Positions 2,837 through 10,978 of a stretch of 13,088 nucleotides of DNA are shown in pieces (position 1 is the first letter of the stretch; the number at the start of each line of letters is the position of its first letter). A model generated the notes under the pieces. It was not told the origin of the DNA. It ran no database searches and saw only the letters and a program-made list of their open reading frames with translations. Origin of the DNA: an uncultured Ruminococcus sp. (GTDB lineage Bacteria > Bacillota > Clostridia > Oscillospirales > Ruminococcaceae); assembly GCA_900556055.1 (NCBI GenBank), contig USNJ01000044.1:1-13088 (forward strand), given 5' to 3'. The position numbers were made by a program, and so were the translations under genes.

Positions 2837-3862
2837 TCAAACCTGGCTGTTGTTGTCGAGGAAGTCCATAACAGCGTCAACTGTTGTGAATGCGAGAGCT
2901 GTGCATGTATCAGCGCAGCCGTAGTAGATGCAGATCCTGCCTGTGTCAGCGTCAACGAGGTTAGCGCAGGGGAATGTTACTGCGTCTGTATCACCGACCA
3001 GCTCATAGTACTCCTGAGGGCTGAGGAGGTAGGAAGCACCTCTCTTGAGGACCTTCCAAGGCTCGTCCTTATCGAGGAGTGCAGCGGAGAAGCTGTATAC
3101 GTAGCCGTTGCAGGAAGTCAGAACGCCGTGATAGAAAATGAGCCAGCCGCGGTCTGTTTCGATAGGAATAGGACCTGCGCCCATCTTTGTGGATTCCCAG
3201 CCCTTGGAGGGACCCATTACGTGTCTGTGCTGACCCCAGAATGTGAGGTCGGGAGACTGGCTGATGAACATATCGCCGAAAGGAGTATGACCGCTGTCGG
3301 AAGGACGGCTCATCATCATGTACTTGTCATTGATCTTTCTGGGGAACATAACGCCGTTTCTGTTGAAGGGCAGGTAAGCGTTCTCCAGCTGTGTGAATTC
3401 CTTGAAATCGTATGTATAAGCAATACCGATAGTAGGCTTCCAGCCGTAAGCGTTGCACCATGTTACAACGTACTTGTCTTCAAGCTTGCAGACTCTGGGG
3501 TCGTAGCCGTACTGCCACTCTGCAACCTCGGGGATATCGCACTTGAACTTGATCCTCTCCTCATTGATGTCCCAGTTGATGCCGTCCTTGGAGAAACCAA
3601 CGTGGAGCTCCATGTTTCTCTCTCTGTCGTCAACTCTGAAAACGCCTGCGAACTTGTAGTCGCCGTTCTCAAAAGGAACTACGGAGCTGTTGAAGATGGA
3701 GTTGGAGGGCTCACGGTAGCCGTTAGCCTTCTTTACCATGATGTGATCTCTCTTGATGATGGGGTTTGCATTGTAGCGCCAAACTACGTCCTTGCATCCC
3801 TCGGGCTTGTCCTGCCAGGGAATGTTGGGGAGGGAAGTGCCGTTGATAACTTTAACCTTCAT
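2837..3862 (-). CDS. GH130 beta-1,4-mannooligosaccharide phosphorylase (RaMP2-like)
   Basis: The 341-residue protein belongs to glycoside hydrolase family 130, a five-bladed propeller. GH130 phosphorylases cleave beta-1,4-mannosides with phosphate to give alpha-mannose 1-phosphate. Visible signatures are the N-terminal REPSNSIFNSSVVPFENGDY (50-69), the catalytic YDPRV with the conserved acid Asp121, FNRNGVMFPRKINDKYMMMSRPSD (166-189), GAGPIPI (228-234), FYHGV (243-247), PWKVLKR (268-274) and YYGCADT (313-319). The length and absence of a signal peptide fit the shorter, cytoplasmic RaMP2-type enzymes acting on mannooligosaccharides, rather than the roughly 390-residue mannosylglucose phosphorylases that are usually encoded next to cellobiose 2-epimerase, which is absent here. 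Codons are rich in AAC, AAG, GAG and ATC, unlike most neighbours, which suggests high expression. It is divergent from a LacI-type regulator. The exact substrate cannot be read from sequence. Confidence 0.92.
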   Translation of the reverse strand: MKVKVINGTSLPNIPWQDKPEGCKDVVWRYNANPIIKRDHIMVKKANGYREPSNSIFNSSVVPFENGDYKFAGVFRVDDRERNMELHVGFSKDGINWDINEERIKFKCDIPEVAEWQYGYDPRVCKLEDKYVVTWCNAYGWKPTIGIAYTYDFKEFTQLENAYLPFNRNGVMFPRKINDKYMMMSRPSDSGHTPFGDMFISQSPDLTFWGQHRHVMGPSKGWESTKMGAGPIPIETDRGWLIFYHGVLTSCNGYVYSFSAALLDKDEPWKVLKRGASYLLSPQEYYELVGDTDAVTFPCANLVDADTGRICIYYGCADTCTALAFTTVDAVMDFLDNNSQV

Positions 3863-4368: not shown

Positions 4369-5376
4369 ATGAAAAAAACAGTCAGAATGCAGGATATAGC
4401 CGACAGATTGGGGATAAGCGTGGCTGCGGTCTCCAAGGTGCTTGCGGATAAGCCGGGCATCAGCGATGAGCTGCGTGTCAAGGTGCGTCAGACAGCGCTT
4501 GAGATCGGATACCGCACATCAACAGCAAAAAAGAAGGCGCACCGCACTGCCACGAGGAGCGTTGCAATAATTGCGGCAGAGCGTTTTTTAAGTGATGATT
4601 CGTTTTATCTGAAATATTATAAGCACATTTCCGACATACTTCAGTCAAATGACTACTGCGGATTTTTTCACAGCATAAGCGACGGGGACGAGAGGGATCT
4701 CATACTTCCGAAAGCGCTTATCACAGGCAGCGTTGACGGAGTGATAATCCTCGGAAAGGTTTCAAACAAATACTCCGAGATGATCGCAAAGAGCGGTCTG
4801 CCGATGATATTCCTCGATTATTACGATGAAAGAACGGAGATCGACTGCATAATCTGCGACAGCTTCTATGCCATGTACGATATGACAAACTATCTTATAA
4901 GAAACGGTCATGAAAGGATAGCTTTTGTCGGAACGGTCAGGGCGACCAGCAGTATACAGGACAGATATCTCGGATATATGAAGTCGCTTATAGAGCATGA
5001 CATATATATCAGAAAGGATTATCTGATCGATGACCGCGACGAAAGCGGACGCATAACTCTCGGCAAGCTGCCCGAGGATATGCCAACGGCGTTTGTCTGC
5101 AACTGCGATGAAACGGCGTGCATGCTGATAAGAAAGCTGCGTGACATGGGCGTGAGAGTGCCGGAAGAGGTGTCTATCACGGGCTTTGATAATTCGGTAT
5201 ATTCGTCGCTTTCCGACCCGAAGATAACAACGGTCGAGGTAAATACGGAGCTTATGTCCCGGCTTGCCGTCGATTCGCTGCTGAAAAAAATAACAAAGCC
5301 GGGTACGGTGATAGGCCGTATCAGGGTCAACGGAAGCATTGTCTACAAAAATTCCGTCAGGGCGATAAAAACGTAA
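4369..5376 (+). CDS. LacI-family transcriptional regulator (likely of mannoside use)
   Basis: The 335-residue protein has the LacI helix-turn-helix at residues 7-26 (MQDIADRLGISVAAVSKVLA) followed by DKPGISDELRVKVRQTALEIGYR. The periplasmic-binding-protein-like effector domain runs from about residue 64 to the end, with GSVDGVIIL (120-128), GHERIAFVG (180-188), DRYLGY (198-203), PTAFVCNCDETA (239-250) and VSITGFDNS (268-276). The hinge (residues 50-63) is rich in Lys and Arg and lacks the minor-groove Leu normally found in the ARSL-type hinge helix. The start has GGGGAGG 6 bases upstream. Divergence from the GH130 gene suggests that it controls mannooligosaccharide phosphorolysis, with a sugar as likely effector. 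It is monocistronic, with its own promoter and terminator. Confidence 0.93.
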   Translation: MKKTVRMQDIADRLGISVAAVSKVLADKPGISDELRVKVRQTALEIGYRTSTAKKKAHRTATRSVAIIAAERFLSDDSFYLKYYKHISDILQSNDYCGFFHSISDGDERDLILPKALITGSVDGVIILGKVSNKYSEMIAKSGLPMIFLDYYDERTEIDCIICDSFYAMYDMTNYLIRNGHERIAFVGTVRATSSIQDRYLGYMKSLIEHDIYIRKDYLIDDRDESGRITLGKLPEDMPTAFVCNCDETACMLIRKLRDMGVRVPEEVSITGFDNSVYSSLSDPKITTVEVNTELMSRLAVDSLLKKITKPGTVIGRIRVNGSIVYKNSVRAIKT

Positions 5377-5393
5377 TTCCCATTTTTTAAAAG

Positions 5394-5428
5394 ATCAGGC
5401 GCATGATTTTATGTGCCTGATTTTTTTT
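5394..5428 (+). terminator. Rho-independent terminator of LacI-family gene
   Basis: A 10-base stem ATCAGGCGCA/TGTGCCTGAT (5394-5403 with 5412-5421, one G-U pair) with an 8-base loop runs into eight T residues. It lies 18 bases past the stop codon. Confidence 0.95.
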
Positions 5429-5438
5429 GAATACCCTA

Positions 5439-5467
5439 TTGACAAATCAATTCTACTGTGATAGAAT
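5439..5467 (+). promoter_or_regulatory. Promoter of blaI-type/M56 operon
   Basis: TTGACA (5439-5444), a 17-base spacer and TAGAAT (5462-5467) with a TGA extended -10. The -10 forms the right arm of the first operator palindrome, so repressor and RNA polymerase would compete directly. Confidence 0.9.
5450..5467. promoter_or_regulatory. Operator 1 for BlaI-type repressor
   Basis: Inverted repeat ATTCTA-CTGTGA-TAGAAT covering the downstream spacer and the whole -10. Its 16-base core TTCTACTGTGATAGAA differs from operator 2 at only three positions (consensus TTCTAYTGNNATAGAA). Confidence 0.8.
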
Positions 5468-5482
5468 AAAATCGTGATCACA

Positions 5483-5498
5483 TTCTATTGCAATAGAA
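5483..5498. promoter_or_regulatory. Operator 2 for BlaI-type repressor
   Basis: TTCTATTGCAATAGAA is a perfect 16-base palindrome between the transcription start region and the ribosome site (AGGAGA, 5500-5505). Its centre is 32 bases from that of operator 1, about three helical turns, so two repressor dimers would bind the same face. Another 8-base palindrome, GTGATCAC (5474-5481), sits between them. Confidence 0.8.
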
Positions 5499-5511
5499 CA
5501 GGAGAATTCAT

Positions 5512-5874
5512 ATGAATATCAAGATGTTTGATTCAGAGCTTAAAGTCATGGAAATATTGTGGAGGGAGGGCGATATACCTGCAAAGGAAATAGCGGCTCT
5601 GCTCGCCAAAGAGGTCGGCTGGTCAAAGACGACGACATATACCGTCATAAAAAAGTGCATAGACAAGGGTGCTGTCAGCCGCTCGGAGGAGGGCTTTGTA
5701 TGCCATGCAGAGATAACAAAGGACGAGGTAAGGGAGTTTGAAACAGCTGAGCTTATTGACCGAATGTACGGCGGCTCGGCGGATAAGCTGGCGGCGTCGA
5801 TGGTCGGAAGCGGAATGCTTTCCGCAGAGGGAATAGCTGCGCTCAAAAAGCTTGTGGAGAATATGAAATGCTGA
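5512..5874 (+). CDS. BlaI/MecI/CopY-family repressor
   Basis: The 120-residue protein is a BlaI/MecI/CopY-type winged-helix repressor. The signature LKVMEILWREGDIPAKEIAALLAKEVGWSKTTTYTVIKKCIDKGAVSR spans residues 10-57, and the C-terminal helices (about 70-118) correspond to the dimerisation region where family members are cut on induction. BlaI proteins repress their own operon until a membrane M56 peptidase triggers their cleavage. That partner is encoded immediately downstream, with a 7-base overlap (ATGCTGA). Two near-identical palindromes cover the promoter and leader, consistent with autoregulation. No beta-lactamase or PBP2a gene is beside it, so the inducer need not be a beta-lactam. 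The start has an AGGAGA site. Confidence 0.95.
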   Translation: MNIKMFDSELKVMEILWREGDIPAKEIAALLAKEVGWSKTTTYTVIKKCIDKGAVSRSEEGFVCHAEITKDEVREFETAELIDRMYGGSADKLAASMVGSGMLSAEGIAALKKLVENMKC

Positions 5875-7571
5875 TACTAAGAATGTCCGCATCGGCTTCT
5901 GTGCTGATAGCTGCGGTCCTTCTGCTGCGGCTTATTTTCGGGAAACATCTGCCAAGGCGCACGTTTACGGCTCTCTGGGCGATAGCGGCACTGCGCATGC
6001 TTATCCCGTTTTATGCTGTGCCGATGACGGAAAATGCGGCTCTTTATGATGCAATGCCGCCTTTTGTTCAGCGGATAAGTGTCGGATATCCCGAAAAAGC
6101 GGAGTCGGACGGCAATAAAAATATCCTGCCGATAGCTGAGGCTGTTTATTCCGCGGGCGTGCTGCTGACGGGGGCTTTCTTCCTCATTCCCCATATGCGG
6201 TTCATGCGTGATGTTTCGTCTGCGCTGCCTGCGGAGGACGATCATCATGAGATGATAACGCCGTTCAACATCAGGCGGAAGGTCTGCGTGAAAATAAGCG
6301 ACAGGATAATATCCCCCGTAACGGTCGGCGTTATCCGCCCTGTTATCCTGCTCCCGAAATGTATGGATTACGATAAAAAGACAATGGATTTCATTCTGGC
6401 GCATGAGCTTGTGCATATAAAAAGATTTGACGTGCTGATGAAATATCTGTCAGCAGCGGCGGTCTGCGTTCATTGGTTCAATCCGCTTGCTTGGATAATG
6501 TTCCGCATGAACTGCCGTGATATCGAGCTTGCCTGCGATGAAGAAGTCCTGAAAATAACCGGCGGCGATCCTGCCGAATATGCGATGGCGCTGATATCCG
6601 CAGAGGAAAACAAGGCGGCGCTGACCGCAGGCTTCGGATCGTCCGAGATAAAAGAAAGGATAGGTGCGATAATGAATTTCAAAAATAAATCAGTGATATG
6701 CATTGCGGTTGCTGCTGTGCTGGTCGCTGCGTCTATGACCGTGTTCGTTTCGGCGGATTTCTTCCGCAGCGATGCATCGGCTGATGCGGCGGAGGCCTCC
6801 GATGTGCAGGAGGATAAGACTGCATATATTGCCAAAAAAATATTTGTTGGCACATCGCAATATCTCACCGAGGCGGCTTTAAATGACGAAAAGCCCGCTT
6901 CGCCGCTGACATTTGATGCGATCAACAAGGATTATTTTGCCGATATTTCGGAATATTTAGGTAAAATAAGCGTGACGATAGATGCTGACACCGAGAATTA
7001 TCTCGTAAAAGGCGTTTCGGTCACGATGGACGGCGAAACAAGGTCATATCCGGGAGCTGCCGCAGATACGGAAGATGAAACAGCTGCGGCAGAGGTTACT
7101 TTTGCAAATACCGATGAAAATGACAGTGCTTCGGTCGTGATGAACAGCGAAGCGGCAGATGAAACAAGCAATGCAGATGTCACTTTTGTATCTCCCGTTA
7201 AAAACCGCAGCGTTTCGGCAGATTATCAAAACAGTAATGACGACAGCGAAAATTTTCATCACGGAATAGATTTTGCATGGAACGGCTGTGAAGGCTCGGA
7301 CATTTCGGCTGCTGCGGACGGCGTTGTATCGGCTGCGGATTATAACAGCAATTACGGAAACTATGTTGTTATAGACCACGGAAACGGCTATTCAACGATA
7401 TATGCGCATCTTTCTGAGATATCCGTAAGCATCGGAGACAGCGTGAAAACAGGCGAAAAAATAGGTCTGCTCGGAAGTACGGGCATGGCGACGGGTGCAA
7501 ATCTTCATTTTGAAGTCCGTGAGGACGGAATTGCCCAGGATCCGCAGCTGTACATGTTTTATCCGTTCTGA
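5868..7571 (+). CDS. M56 (BlaR1-like) membrane metallopeptidase fused to C-terminal M23 domain
   Basis: The 567-residue protein combines an N-terminal M56 signalling peptidase with a C-terminal M23 (LytM-like) domain. Hydrophobic segments lie at about 6-24, 32-50, 86-107 and 275-296. The zinc motif HELVH (179-183) is followed by IKRFD and by ELACDEE (220-226), which probably gives the third ligand, as in BlaR1/MecR1. After the last membrane helix, an acidic linker (300-455) would lie outside the cell and leads to the M23 domain (about 463-567), with HHGID (464-468), YAHL (512-515) and ANLHFEV (544-550). In BlaR1 this place is held by a penicillin-binding sensor. The putative M23 zinc ligands H464, D468 and H547 and the catalytic H514 are present, but the first His of the HxH motif is Asn545. 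It overlaps the BlaI-type repressor gene, which is its probable target. It may sense cell-wall peptides; this is inference. Confidence 0.93.
   Translation: MLILRMSASASVLIAAVLLLRLIFGKHLPRRTFTALWAIAALRMLIPFYAVPMTENAALYDAMPPFVQRISVGYPEKAESDGNKNILPIAEAVYSAGVLLTGAFFLIPHMRFMRDVSSALPAEDDHHEMITPFNIRRKVCVKISDRIISPVTVGVIRPVILLPKCMDYDKKTMDFILAHELVHIKRFDVLMKYLSAAAVCVHWFNPLAWIMFRMNCRDIELACDEEVLKITGGDPAEYAMALISAEENKAALTAGFGSSEIKERIGAIMNFKNKSVICIAVAAVLVAASMTVFVSADFFRSDASADAAEASDVQEDKTAYIAKKIFVGTSQYLTEAALNDEKPASPLTFDAINKDYFADISEYLGKISVTIDADTENYLVKGVSVTMDGETRSYPGAAADTEDETAAAEVTFANTDENDSASVVMNSEAADETSNADVTFVSPVKNRSVSADYQNSNDDSENFHHGIDFAWNGCEGSDISAAADGVVSAADYNSNYGNYVVIDHGNGYSTIYAHLSEISVSIGDSVKTGEKIGLLGSTGMATGANLHFEVREDGIAQDPQLYMFYPF
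7074..7191 (+). repeat. 84-base imperfect tandem repeat in the linker of the M56-M23 protein
   Basis: The segments 7074-7107 and 7158-7191 agree at about 24 of 34 bases and encode DETAAAEVTFANTD and DETSNADVTFVSPV, exactly 28 codons apart. This looks like an old internal duplication in the acidic extracellular linker just before the M23 domain. Confidence 0.5.
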
Positions 7572-7590
7572 CAGATAAAAATATCCCATA

Positions 7591-7630
7591 AAAAAGGCGT
7601 TTCACATCAGTTGGTGTGAAACGCTGTTTT
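7591..7630. terminator. Bidirectional terminator between convergent genes
   Basis: A perfect 10-base stem GCGTTTCACA/TGTGAAACGC (7597-7606 with 7615-7624) and 8-base loop is flanked by AAAAA on the left and TTTT on the right, so it can end both the M56-M23 transcript (plus) and the prolyl-tRNA editing transcript (minus). Confidence 0.92.
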
Positions 7631-7635
7631 TAGTA

Positions 7636-8127
7636 TTATACATCAATATAGTGTATGGGATTTCCGTTTGCCGTGCATAGCTTCAGCAGATCGTCAAAGG
7701 AAAGCAGGACGGTCGCAGTGTTGTCGTTCGGGTGAACGCCCACACTTTTCAGCCCTTTAAGCGAATTGTCGAAATATACGGGTACATCGCCGTTTTCGTT
7801 GTTCAGCAGGCAGAACGGCGATACCGAGCCGGGGGTTATCCCGAGATGTTCCATCAGCCTTGCTTCGGAGGCGAAGCCAAGTCTTGTCGAGCCTAGCTTC
7901 TCGGCTATCTTTTTGAGATCGGCACGCTTGCGCAGCGGCAGGACGATAAGATAGAAATGCCGTCCCTTTGAGTCACGCAGAAAAAGGTTTTTTATCACGA
8001 CATCGTCTTCGGCATAAAGTGTCGGATCCTCGTCCGCTTCGCAGAACATCGCCTTGTGTTCGATTATTTTGTATCGGATCCCGCTTTTTTCGAGCAGGTC
8101 ATATATAGCTTTTTTATCGTAGATCAT
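7636..8127 (-). CDS. Prolyl-tRNA editing protein (PrdX/YbaK family, Ala-tRNA(Pro) deacylase)
   Basis: The 163-residue protein is a free-standing YbaK/ProX editing domain. Family members hydrolyse mischarged tRNA(Pro), typically Ala-tRNA(Pro). The pattern fits: IIEHKAMFCEADED (21-34), VVIKNLFLRDSKGRHFYLIVLP (43-64) with the conserved Lys46, the ADLKKIAEKLGSTRLGFASEARLMEHLGITPGSVSPFCLLNN stretch (69-110), VYFDNSLKG (117-125) and HPNDNTATVLLSFDDLLK (132-149). The bacterial-type INS editing domain is missing from the prolyl-tRNA synthetase just upstream, so this protein probably supplies editing in trans. It overlaps the lipoprotein gene by an ATGA junction and is the last gene before the bidirectional terminator. 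A substrate other than Ala-tRNA(Pro) is possible. Confidence 0.9.
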   Translation of the reverse strand: MIYDKKAIYDLLEKSGIRYKIIEHKAMFCEADEDPTLYAEDDVVIKNLFLRDSKGRHFYLIVLPLRKRADLKKIAEKLGSTRLGFASEARLMEHLGITPGSVSPFCLLNNENGDVPVYFDNSLKGLKSVGVHPNDNTATVLLSFDDLLKLCTANGNPIHYIDV

Positions 8128-8789
8128 TCCTGTTTCTCCCTGAACGGATCGGGTATATCCGTTATTTCATTCACACGGTCAAAGGTGACGGTATAGCTGT
8201 TTTCCGTTGTTTTTCCGTTATCGGTGACGGTGCTGTTCTGCACGAAATCGGCGAAATTTCCGTCAGAGTCAAATCTGTATTCCGCCGAAAATGCGGTAAG
8301 ACCGTTCAGCGACTCAAATTTATCCGCAAGCTTTTCGGTGTCATAATCGTAGGTGTAGACGGATTCGCCGTCAGCTTCATCGCATCGGCTGTCGGAAATG
8401 CATTCGGGCAGCATGAAAAACAGCTGTCCGTCAGCAAACGGGTGAGTGCTTTTGCGGTTGTAGACGACGGTGTTGTCGCTTTTGAGAGCGCCGTTCTGCT
8501 CGGTGTAAAGGTCAGTTCCCGTGTAATATTCACGGTATTTGCTGCCGTCGGAAACGCCTGTGCAGAGGTAGTGGAGCTTGTTGTTTTTGTCATAGAAATA
8601 GGTGAATTCCTGCTCTGAGATTCCCGTTAAATTGTTTATCACCGAATAATGTCCGCTGTCTGCCGATGCTGCATTTTTGCGTACAGCCATAACAGCGTCA
8701 TATCCCGCAACGTTTGAATTATCAGCCGAACAGCCGCCGAAAAGGAGTGCCGCCGATATCAATGCGGCAAAAGCAAAGTGTTTTTTCAT
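8124..8789 (-). CDS. Putative lipoprotein of unknown function
   Basis: The 221-residue protein begins MKKHFAFAALISAALLFGGC, a signal peptide with a lipobox-like end and the acylation site at Cys20. The -3 residue is Phe rather than the usual Leu, so the lipobox is slightly atypical. The mature part is polar and beta-rich, with repeated YxxYD-type aromatic patches (FTYFYDKNNKLHYL, YTYDYDTEKLADKF), and resembles LolA/LppX-type small lipoprotein folds only in general character. It lies 12 bases after the DUF4303-like gene with a GGAGG site, and overlaps the editing protein by 4 bases. I do not recognise a named family, and nothing links it to tRNA editing except the operon. Confidence 0.82.
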   Translation of the reverse strand: MKKHFAFAALISAALLFGGCSADNSNVAGYDAVMAVRKNAASADSGHYSVINNLTGISEQEFTYFYDKNNKLHYLCTGVSDGSKYREYYTGTDLYTEQNGALKSDNTVVYNRKSTHPFADGQLFFMLPECISDSRCDEADGESVYTYDYDTEKLADKFESLNGLTAFSAEYRFDSDGNFADFVQNSTVTDNGKTTENSYTVTFDRVNEITDIPDPFREKQE

Positions 8790-8801
8790 CTCTGCCCTCC
8801 G

Positions 8802-9464
8802 TCAGACGGTCGGGAATGTACAGCCGCGCATATCGAAATATTCCTCGTCAAGCAGGCTGAGATCGTTTGCGAGAGCTGTGTAAACCGCACTGTCTGCGGT
8901 AAGCTCAAGGCTGTCGATCATAAGCACGGGGATATCCTTTCCGAAGCGTTCGGCAATAGTTCCGTCAGCCTTCAGTGCCTTGACTGCGTTTATCGCACAT
9001 GGGAAAAATTCAGCGGCAAGAGCGTCCTGCGGCATGTTTTCGAATGAGATATTGCGGAACTGCGCCCACATATCCATTGAGCCGTAAACAGCGTCATCAT
9101 CGTCGAAATTCTCGAAATAATGAGCCTTCCAATTGCAGAAATTCCACCTTGCGCCGCTTATTTCGTTCTGCGGATTATCCTCGGTGTTATAGCAGAATGA
9201 TACATCTGCGCCTGCTCTGTTTTTCTCGTCTGTGCCTGCCTGAAAGCATATGCCTATTGCATTCACCTTCATGTCGGTGATGCGGTTCAGCTCGTCTATC
9301 AGCCACTTTTTCAGCGCAAATATCAGCGATTTGTCATGCTCATTTTTCGGTGTGATGTCGAAATTCTTTATTTCATCGGATATATCGGTCTTTTCCATAT
9401 CAAAAGAGCCTGTTTCAAGATATTCTCTCAGCTTGTCGGCAAGATCTTCATCAAAATCGGGCAT
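8802..9464 (-). CDS. Cytoplasmic protein, possibly DUF4303-like
   Basis: The 220-residue acidic protein has no signal peptide or membrane helix. An N-terminal helical part (1-62) precedes a segment VNAIGICFQAGTDEKNRAGADVSFCYNTED (67-96) and then ARWNFCNWKAHYF (105-117). An NTE motif followed by an RWxxCxW motif reminds me of DUF4303 proteins, but the match is from memory and weak. The start has an ideal AAGGAGGA site. That site directly abuts the U-tract of the hairpin after the prolyl-tRNA synthetase gene, leaving no obvious room for a separate promoter. It heads a three-gene run with the lipoprotein and the prolyl-tRNA editing protein. Function unknown. Confidence 0.75.
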   Translation of the reverse strand: MPDFDEDLADKLREYLETGSFDMEKTDISDEIKNFDITPKNEHDKSLIFALKKWLIDELNRITDMKVNAIGICFQAGTDEKNRAGADVSFCYNTEDNPQNEISGARWNFCNWKAHYFENFDDDDAVYGSMDMWAQFRNISFENMPQDALAAEFFPCAINAVKALKADGTIAERFGKDIPVLMIDSLELTADSAVYTALANDLSLLDEEYFDMRGCTFPTV

Positions 9465-9476
9465 AGTTTATCCTCC

Positions 9477-9518
9477 TTAAAAACAGAGGACCGCCGCAGA
9501 TATAATGCAGCGATCCCC
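9477..9518 (-). terminator. Hairpin terminator or attenuator after prolyl-tRNA synthetase gene
   Basis: On the minus strand a 13-pair stem (9506-9518 with 9486-9498, including G-U pairs) and a 7-base loop are followed by CTGTTTTTAA. The ribosome site AGGAGGA (9471-9477) of the next gene starts at once after the U-tract, so read-through may feed the downstream genes. Confidence 0.75.
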
Positions 9519-9532
9519 CGAAAAAGTTTTTA

Positions 9533-10978
9533 TCAATATGCTTTGCCCCAGAAAACGAGCTGATTTGCAGGCTTTCCGCAGCATACGCAGACATCGGAGA
9601 CCTGTTCCTGCTCGAGAGGGATGCATCTTGAGCCGACACCTGTAACTTCCTTGACCTTGCTTTCGCATTCCTCGCTGCCGCACCACATAGCCTTGATGAA
9701 GCCATTGCCCTTTTCCTCGAGAGTCTTTGTGATCTCATCGAGAGTCTTGCAGGCGTATGTGCGTCTTTCACGGTTTGCGAGAGCGTTTGCATACAGTCCG
9801 TCGCGGACAGCAGTCAGCTTGTCGTTTACGGCTGTTTCGAGATCATCGAGAGATACGAAAGCCTTTTCACGGTTATGTCTTGTGACGATAACGCACTGGT
9901 TCTGCTCTATATCCTTAGGTCCGATCTCAATGCGGACAGGAACGCCCTTCATTTCATATTCAGCGAACTTCCAGCCGGGTGAATTGTCCGAATCATCGAG
10001 CTTGACTCTTACGCCTGCCTTTGCAAGACGATCCTTCAGCTCCTGAGCCTTTTCAAGAACACCCTCCTTATGCTGCTGAACAGGAATGATAACCGCCTGA
10101 ACAGGTGCAACCGCAGGGGGGAGAACAAGGCCGTTGTCATCGCCGTGAGTCATGATGATAGCACCGATAAGACGTGTTGTAACACCCCATGAGGTCTGGT
10201 GAGGATAAACCTTCTTGTTTTCCTTGTCCGTATACATGATTCCGAATGCCTTTGCAAATCCATCGCCGAAATAGTGGGAAGTACCTGCCTGGAGAGCCTG
10301 ACCGTCATGCATCAGAGCCTCGATAGCATATGTGGAAACTGCGCCCGCAAACTTGTCGCTCTCGGTCTTTTTGCCCTTGATAACAGGCATAGCAAGGCAC
10401 TTTTCGCAGAAGTCCGCATATACGTTCAGCATACGCTCGGTTTCTTCGACAGCCTCCTCAGCGGTAGCGTGGATAGTGTGTCCCTCCTGCCAGAGAAATT
10501 CTCTTGAACGGAGAAAAGGACGTGTTGTCTTTTCCCATCTTACGACGGATACCCACTGATTGTAGAGCTTGGGCAGGTCGCGGTAGGAGTGAACGATATT
10601 TGAGTAATGCTCGCAGAAAAGGGTTTCGGAGGTAGGACGGACGCAGAGTCTTTCGTCCAGCTTTTCGGAGCCGCCGTGAGTTACCCATGCGACCTCCGGA
10701 GCGAAGCCCTCAACGTGATCCTTTTCCTTGTTCAGCAGGCTTTCGGGGATGAACATAGGCATGCAGACATTCTCGTGTCCGGTAGCTTTGAACATTCCGT
10801 CGAGTATATGCTGGATATTTTCCCAGATAGCATAGCCGTAAGGTCTGATGACCATGCAGCCCTTGACGCTTGTGTATTCGATAAGCTCAGCTTTCTTTAC
10901 GATGTCGGTGTACCACTTGGCGAAGTCCTCGTCCATAGAGGTGATCGCTTCGACCATTTTTTTATTATCCTTTGCCAT
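9533..10978 (-). CDS. proS: Prolyl-tRNA synthetase, archaeal/eukaryote type (ProS type 3)
   Basis: The 481-residue enzyme attaches proline to tRNA(Pro). It is the short archaeal/eukaryote type: class II motif 1 region [12 protein letters not shown] (48-59), RPTSETL (114-120), motif 2 [22 protein letters not shown] (147-168) and motif 3 [24 protein letters not shown] (265-288). The anticodon-binding domain (about 290-400) is followed by a zinc-type C-terminal domain with C433, C438 and CVCC (464-467), ending in the typical WGKAY. There is no roughly 180-residue INS editing insertion between motifs 2 and 3, so Ala-tRNA(Pro) must be cleared in trans, plausibly by the PrdX/YbaK protein three genes downstream. 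Codons favour ATC and GAG, as expected for high expression. It has its own promoter and an AAGGAGA site, with no T-box leader. Confidence 0.97.

Follow-up and report, generated by a model that had tools for sequence, protein, structure and literature searches.

A BlaI/BlaR1-type gene pair whose membrane protease carries a candidate M23 pseudo-peptidase sensor in an uncultured Ruminococcus sp.

We analyzed 13,088 nucleotides of contig USNJ01000044.1 (assembly GCA_900556055.1, an uncultured Ruminococcus sp.), referred to here as the window. We confirmed a two-gene unit at 5439-7571, consisting of a repressor ORF and a membrane-protein ORF, and propose that it is a BlaI/BlaR1-type proteolytic switch in which an M23 pseudo-peptidase serves as the outside sensor. 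We give this proposal an even chance of being right. The best-known role of BlaR1-like receptors is the sensing of penicillin. The loss of the first histidine of the HxH motif in a zinc-keeping M23 domain of an M56 fusion was newly noticed in this work.

RESULTS

A repressor gene and an overlapping M56-M23 gene form the unit

A first-pass annotation of this DNA had described a repressor, an overlapping membrane M56 peptidase, and an M23 domain. The ORFs and Pfam matches far above the cut-offs bore this out (Table 1). Since terminator-like hairpins flank the unit on both sides, it probably consists of these two genes only. The hairpin on the upstream side came from folding and was missing from the scan that listed the promoter-like site and the downstream hairpin.

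Table 1. Features of the two-gene unit, with positions in the window
Feature	Positions	Strand	Remarks
Terminator-like hairpin after the upstream lacI-type gene	5390..5425	+	fold -20.7 kcal/mol, z -7.2
Promoter: -35 TTGACA (5439-5444), -10 TAGAAT (5462-5467), spacing 17	5439..5467	+	TG before -10
Operator box 1, TTCTACTGTGATAGAA (candidate)	5451..5466	+	contains/overlaps -10
Operator box 2, TTCTATTGCAATAGAA (candidate)	5483..5498	+	perfect palindrome, 32 bp from box 1, past expected start point
Ribosome-binding site AGGAG	5500..5504	+	read by eye
blaI-type winged-helix repressor, 120 aa	5512..5874	+	PF03965
Membrane M56 protease with C-terminal M23, 567 aa	5868..7571	+	overlaps blaI by 7 nt
M56 domain, residues 3-267	5874..6668	+	PF05569, E 9.7e-44
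HELVH zinc-protease motif, residues 179-183	6402..6416	+	
ELACD motif (EXXXD), residues 220-224	6525..6539	+	E220 and D224 in 82/82 rows
F256, positional counterpart of the BlaR1 autocleavage P1' Phe	6633..6635	+	kept in 63/82 rows
Last membrane helix, residues 277-297	6696..6758	+	model helix 277-309
Small helix plus 3-strand module, residues 317-396	6816..7055	+	between membrane and M23
M23/LytM domain, residues 463-559	7254..7544	+	PF01551, E 3.5e-32
N545 codon AAT, Asn for the first His of HxH	7500..7502	+	
Terminator-like hairpin closing the unit	7590..7631	+	fold -21.4 kcal/mol, z -7.5

The neighbors are a LacI-type regulator, a GH130 enzyme, a PstS-like protein, an aminoacyl-tRNA editing protein, prolyl-tRNA synthetase, and ORFs without assignment. 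We compared 10 neighboring ORFs with NCBIfam, and 7 of them also with Pfam. Among these we found no resistance gene beside the unit and no match to a β-lactamase or penicillin-binding protein (PBP), which agrees, for the ORFs scanned, with the earlier statement that no resistance gene is adjacent. The sole resistance-named match was a weak one in NCBIfam, in which the ORF at 506-742 scored 23 of 150 bits with the model of the regulator VanU.

The GH130 mannoside-phosphorylase-like gene (2837-3862, minus strand) lies opposite the LacI-type regulator (4369-5376, plus strand) and is possibly a regulated sugar gene. On the other side of the unit, the minus-strand genes at 7636-10978 are a possible prolyl-tRNA synthetase and trans-editing cluster: the synthetase (9533-10978) is followed by an ORF, a lipoprotein-like ORF (8124-8789), and a YbaK-type aminoacyl-tRNA editing protein (7636-8127). 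The lipoprotein-like ORF reaches 18.2 of the 200 bits required by the model of the DL-endopeptidase inhibitor IseA, a weak match that is probably due to chance.

The repressor is of the BlaI/MecI/CopY superfamily

The repressor matches Penicillinase_R (PF03965) with an E value of 1.8e-20 and 73.8 bits versus a cut-off of 22.6. By this match it belongs to the BlaI/MecI/CopY superfamily, with candidate dyad operators on its own promoter. The name BlaI given to it at first pass needs a correction: in NCBIfam the score favors CopY (62.5 of 122 bits) over BlaI (46.6 of 180 bits), with both cut-offs missed. When we searched 113 fetched loci with the window repressor, 105 gave a match. The best match was 45-69% identical in 103 of these 105 loci, and an M56 gene follows the repressor in 104 of them.

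The repressor can be aligned to MecI/BlaI structures. MecI and BlaI are cut between Asn101 and Phe102, and the P1' Phe is almost invariant, as described in PMC9834060. We found Ser96-Met97 at the aligned site of the window repressor, not the classical pair. The second position is Leu in 96 of 106 aligned rows (window included) and Met in the window alone. Because a bulky hydrophobic residue is kept there, although the classical Phe is not, proteolytic cleavage of the window repressor is plausible.

Operators within the promoter are conserved in relatives

The promoter-like site at 5439 has 11 of 12 consensus matches. The promoter scan of the window gave 3 sites versus 3.7 expected, which is no proof alone, and it is conservation in relatives that carries the case. 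The operator pattern TTCTAYTGNNATAGAA has two exact copies, boxes 1 and 2. With up to 3 mismatches allowed, it has 9 matches in the window (both strands) versus 2.4 expected.

We monitored conservation in 99 distinct upstream regions of related repressors, window included, a non-independent sample from related species in which one region is only 10 bases long. At least one CTA-N6-TAG box was present in 72 of the 99 regions, versus 5.8 expected from mononucleotide shuffles, and absent in 27. In 71 regions, window included, the box ends in TAG[AT]; in 41 of these, a -35 matching at 5 or more of its 6 positions stands 16-18 nt away from the -10 that the box itself supplies, versus 2.5 expected from random offsets. 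Since the box and the spaced -35 recur far above expectation, we read the operator-in-promoter design as a conserved feature of this repressor family. The operators that had been proposed on the unit's own promoter are thus upheld at the level of sequence, by two exact boxes and by their conservation in relatives.

Clostridium thermocellum offers a parallel in the account given by PMC8457756. There, DAP-seq peaks of BlaI proteins fell on the operons of the proteins themselves, at paired CTAT-type sites, and probes with a single repeat were bound in an electrophoretic mobility shift assay (EMSA). Their regulons are very small and include their own operon, and half-sites similar to those described here occur in pairs.

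The M56 protease is BlaR1-like

We found only M56 and M23 domains in the membrane protein with Pfam, and no penicillin-binding sensor domain. The NCBIfam BlaR1 model matches residues 130-321 with 103.8 bits and misses its cut-off of 400. The M56 protease motifs are intact and BlaR1-like. The BlaR1 autocleavage loop has a bulky hydrophobic P1' residue and a following Arg, according to PMC9834060; in the window protein, R264 follows the loop residue and is present in 82 of 82 rows, and F256 and R264 are matched to BlaR1 by position only. By analogy, the protease would cut the repressor upon a signal. For the module at residues 317-396, fold comparison gave no secure match. The BlaI/BlaR1 logic that had been assigned to the unit is well supported by the protease motifs, the autocleavage-loop Phe, the conserved own-promoter operators, and the swapped ectodomain.

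Zinc ligands are kept and a catalytic histidine is lost in the M23 domain

The M23 fold is present in the membrane protein, with the PF01551 match far above its cut-off. Within the window clade, no variation occurs at the zinc ligands H464, D468, and H547 (HxxxD and the second His of HxH) or at the accessory H514, which indicates that the zinc site is retained. We found that Asn545 replaces the first HxH His in 8 of 8 close-clade proteins (the window protein and P0001-P0007). As set out in PMC9662197, the first HxH His of M23 takes no part in zinc binding and is the proposed water activator.

Asn545 pairs in the alignment with His247 of Pgp3, and Ala stands there in the H247A chain. The Pgp3 H247A variant is described in PMC6978369 as inactive and was crystallized with a pentapeptide and a crosslinked muropeptide. 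By this alignment, the position mutated in Pgp3 to trap substrate is naturally altered in the window clade. Because the zinc site is kept and the water-activating His is gone, the M23 domain probably binds without cutting, i.e., it probably recognizes wall material rather than cuts it. It may be that Asn545 leaves a reduced activity rather than none. The Pgp3 diaminopimelate contacts Arg195 and Tyr215 correspond to Asn493 and Ala513 in the window, and since these contacts differ, a simple transfer of Pgp3 specificity is disfavored.

The first-pass annotation had the unit sense wall fragments or wall damage. A sensing role for the M23 domain gains from the loss of the catalytic His with the zinc kept. 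The peptidoglycan-fragment ligand we only infer, given that the Pgp3 contacts differ and that the operators of some relatives lie at ABC-type operons, which point to stress from antimicrobial peptides.

Paired boxes in relatives lie mainly at the blaI-M56 pair

We searched for paired boxes in 50 distinct genomes chosen for having a blaI-M56 pair, five with both forms of the box and the rest with one. The TCTA form matched in 16 of 30 genomes (reversed control, 0) and the ACTA form in 18 of 25 (reversed control, 2); overall, 34 of 50 genomes matched. Merging overlaps left 38 sites, and 30 of the 38 are upstream of the blaI-M56 pair. In one genome (L136), a site lies between blaI and a divergent operon that is small lipoprotein-like/MacB-like ABC (the lipoprotein and membrane labels at these sites were given by eye). 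In Caldicoprobacter (L132 and L133), three sites are upstream of near-identical lipoprotein-like genes; at two of them (L133) the next genes are two membrane-type ORFs and one for an ABC ATPase, and at the third (L132) there is only a single membrane-type ORF. The nearest model to this ATPase is TIGR03740, lantibiotic protection, at 191 bits versus a cut-off of 310. One site (L134) is upstream of a solute-binding-like lipoprotein, and three further sites are without assignment. Altogether, 4 of the 38 sites are at or beside ABC-type operons. These data suggest that, within pair-selected genomes, the paired boxes mark mainly the blaI-M56 pair, with occasional envelope or transport targets.

Targets of this kind would fit an envelope-stress or antimicrobial-peptide switch. 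Like EnvC/NlpD-type degenerate LytM domains, the M23 domain would then dock a protein partner or give an indirect report of wall damage, and a transporter or lipoprotein encoded elsewhere in the genome would be the main output. The three Caldicoprobacter sites, two of them with an ABC ATPase, and the MacB-like operon speak for it, as does the observation in PMC9662197 that degenerate M23 domains act mostly through protein contacts. We nevertheless consider this explanation unlikely. The M56 proteins of the blaI pairs fetched from the Caldicoprobacter and MacB-like genomes (L044 and L018) have no M23 match, so their targets may not apply to the window, and the window's zinc site is fully kept.

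M56-M23 fusions vary in their catalytic residues

To set the window against other fusions, we grouped 74 M23 domains of M56-fused proteins into 25 clusters at 60% identity. The catalytic set is full in 14 of 25 clusters; 5 lack one catalytic His and retain only the zinc ligands, and 6 have lost zinc ligands, one of these being doubtful. One degenerate fusion, P0084, is possibly misaligned. The control sample was 53 other M23 domains in 32 clusters from 15 genomes, taken from the loci of 51 of 68 matches; at least one control domain, L145, belongs to an M56-M23 protein cut by its locus. Loss of the HxH His was not significantly more common in M56 fusions (9 of 25 clusters, a count entered by hand from the 25-cluster analysis) than in the control (5 of 32 clusters, with one of the five, L183, an alignment gap; Fisher p 0.12). 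An enrichment of dead M23 sites in M56 fusions, suggested by 6 genomes, was therefore not borne out by the wider control. We base the pseudo-peptidase claim on the residues of the window's M23 domain itself and not on a family-wide trend.

The full HxxxD/H/HxH sets of those 14 clusters of distant fusions would suit a homeostatic hydrolase, with the M23 domain as an active membrane-tethered wall hydrolase and itself the output, its level set by M56 and BlaI. No other gene is apparent in the unit, and NCBI names some M56-M23 fusions peptidoglycan DD-metalloendopeptidase. For the window we regard this as improbable: His is replaced by Asn at the water-activating position throughout the close clade, and the equivalent Pgp3 variant is the inactive H247A.

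M23 is scattered over a tree of 147 M56 domains: its label requires 13 changes, at least 6 of them forced by well-supported branches, versus a shuffled mean of 33. The window's five nearest rows are labeled as having no M23, one of which (L107) is cut by a contig end, and the smallest well-supported set around the window has 13 rows, 3 with M23 (window included). The tree was built by a quick method and has several long branches, and the labels of proteins cut by contig ends, such as L107, are unsure. The simplest reading is repeated exchange of ectodomains on an M56 chassis, with losses also compatible.

In a whole-genome contig scan, the matches listed (80 loci) are at most 42% identical to the window protein; the best match in two overlapping one-family samples (247 and 396 genomes) is 47%. 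No relatives were found on viral contigs. Of the 120 matches listed for the prolyl-tRNA synthetase, 26 are 97-100% identical; the others, at 88% or less, include proteins named as Oscillospiraceae, Clostridia, Ruminococcus sp., or Clostridium sp. The first-pass remark that M56-M23 fusions are already annotated in databases stands. A described function was not found in the accessible literature, most subscription papers lying outside the search; the mention of the M56-M23 architecture in PMC9662197 is the only one found.

Several relatives differ in their setting. P0241, with 1297 residues, is listed with M56, M23, PF00364, PF13472, and PF25984 and has two full M23 stretches plus a fragment. 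A 987-residue M56-M23 protein (L165, 3474-6437) has no adjacent blaI ORF in the stretch examined. In another locus (L002), an MreB-like ORF (1806-2840, by eye) is directly upstream of a blaI-M56-M23 unit with a complete M23 site. In one genome, two blaI-M56 pairs (L130 and L131) resemble each other and share a three-box control region; each has recombinase- or integrase-like ORFs nearby (by eye), a setting which suggests that the blaI-M56 module can move.

DISCUSSION

According to our model of a proteolytic switch with an M23 sensor, a repressor dimer would hold the two operators, one over the -10 and one just downstream, and would thereby keep its own two-gene operon low. The membrane protein would have its M56 protease on the cytoplasmic side and its M23 domain outside, as predicted by modeling and by homology to BlaR1. 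Lacking the water-activating His, the M23 domain would bind wall stem peptides or a wall-associated partner and leave them uncut. By analogy with S. aureus BlaR1, occupancy would act through the last membrane helix, and M56 would cut itself and then the repressor. Cleavage of the repressor would release the operon and any distant targets.

We infer that the ligand is wall peptides. A peptidoglycan dipeptide binds BlaI directly in Bacillus licheniformis, as reported in PMC3305447, and wall-fragment control of this repressor class thus has a precedent by another route. More specifically, the M23 domain could be a natural substrate trap, in which stem-peptide occupancy opens a BlaR1-type protease gate. 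The window protein would then bind peptidoglycan directly as a receptor built like BlaR1, and its M23 domain would be one among several ectodomains exchanged repeatedly within this receptor class. We advance this only tentatively, as somewhat less probable than not.

A β-lactam responder, set off by β-lactam damage, in which the M23 domain is incidental or senses released fragments and wall-synthesis or resistance targets lie elsewhere, would accord with the BlaR1 family match and with the reading that the authors of PMC8457756 gave of the C. thermocellum BlaI regulons, but it is the least probable of these explanations, given that Pfam found no penicillin-binding sensor, that the scanned neighbors include no β-lactamase or PBP, and that the BlaR1 cut-off was missed.

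Among the matches listed, the BlaI-M56 class is seen in many Clostridia and in Paenibacillus relatives. If the M23 pseudo-enzyme works as a sensor, this class would amount to a system that senses the envelope through sensors that can be exchanged. If so, the drive of BlaI control by wall fragments could be tested with one purified domain.

Comparison with known systems

BlaI/BlaR1 and MecI/MecR1 of S. aureus and B. licheniformis share with the window a repressor and an M56 protease, operators on their own promoter, HEXXH...EXXXD, the loop Phe, and an extracytoplasmic C-terminal domain. The window differs from them in having M23 for the penicillin-binding fold, an operator core of CTA-N6-TAG, Met as the repressor P1' residue, and no adjacent resistance gene among the ORFs scanned. 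Because no penicillin sensor was found, the window system is not BlaR1, although it would be BlaR1-like in its working. The BlaI of C. thermocellum resembles the window repressor in having paired CTAT half-sites upstream of a blaI-blaR1 operon and, by prediction, in autoregulation. Its receptors are described as BlaR1, and the available text of PMC8457756 does not mention an M23 sensor such as that proposed for the window.

EnvC, NlpD, and LECT2 likewise have an M23 fold without the full catalytic set, used for binding or control, as described in PMC9662197. The catalytic set of the window M23 domain appears incomplete in the manner of these EnvC/NlpD-type degenerate LytM regulators. Unlike the window protein, they are not joined to a signaling protease, and the window domain keeps its zinc ligands. 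Pgp3 H247A of Campylobacter jejuni is changed at the same HxH residue, keeps its zinc ligands, and binds stem peptides; wild-type Pgp3 is an active enzyme with the His in place, and two of its diaminopimelate-contact residues differ from those of the window. Database M56-M23 proteins, e.g., "M23/M56 family metallopeptidase," have both domains in one chain, as in the window. Besides P0001-P0007, those listed are mostly less than 40% identical to the window protein, and many keep the catalytic His. M56-M23 proteins were thus already annotated, and the pairing of a candidate pseudo-peptidase sensor with a BlaI-type switch is a variant of BlaI/BlaR1.
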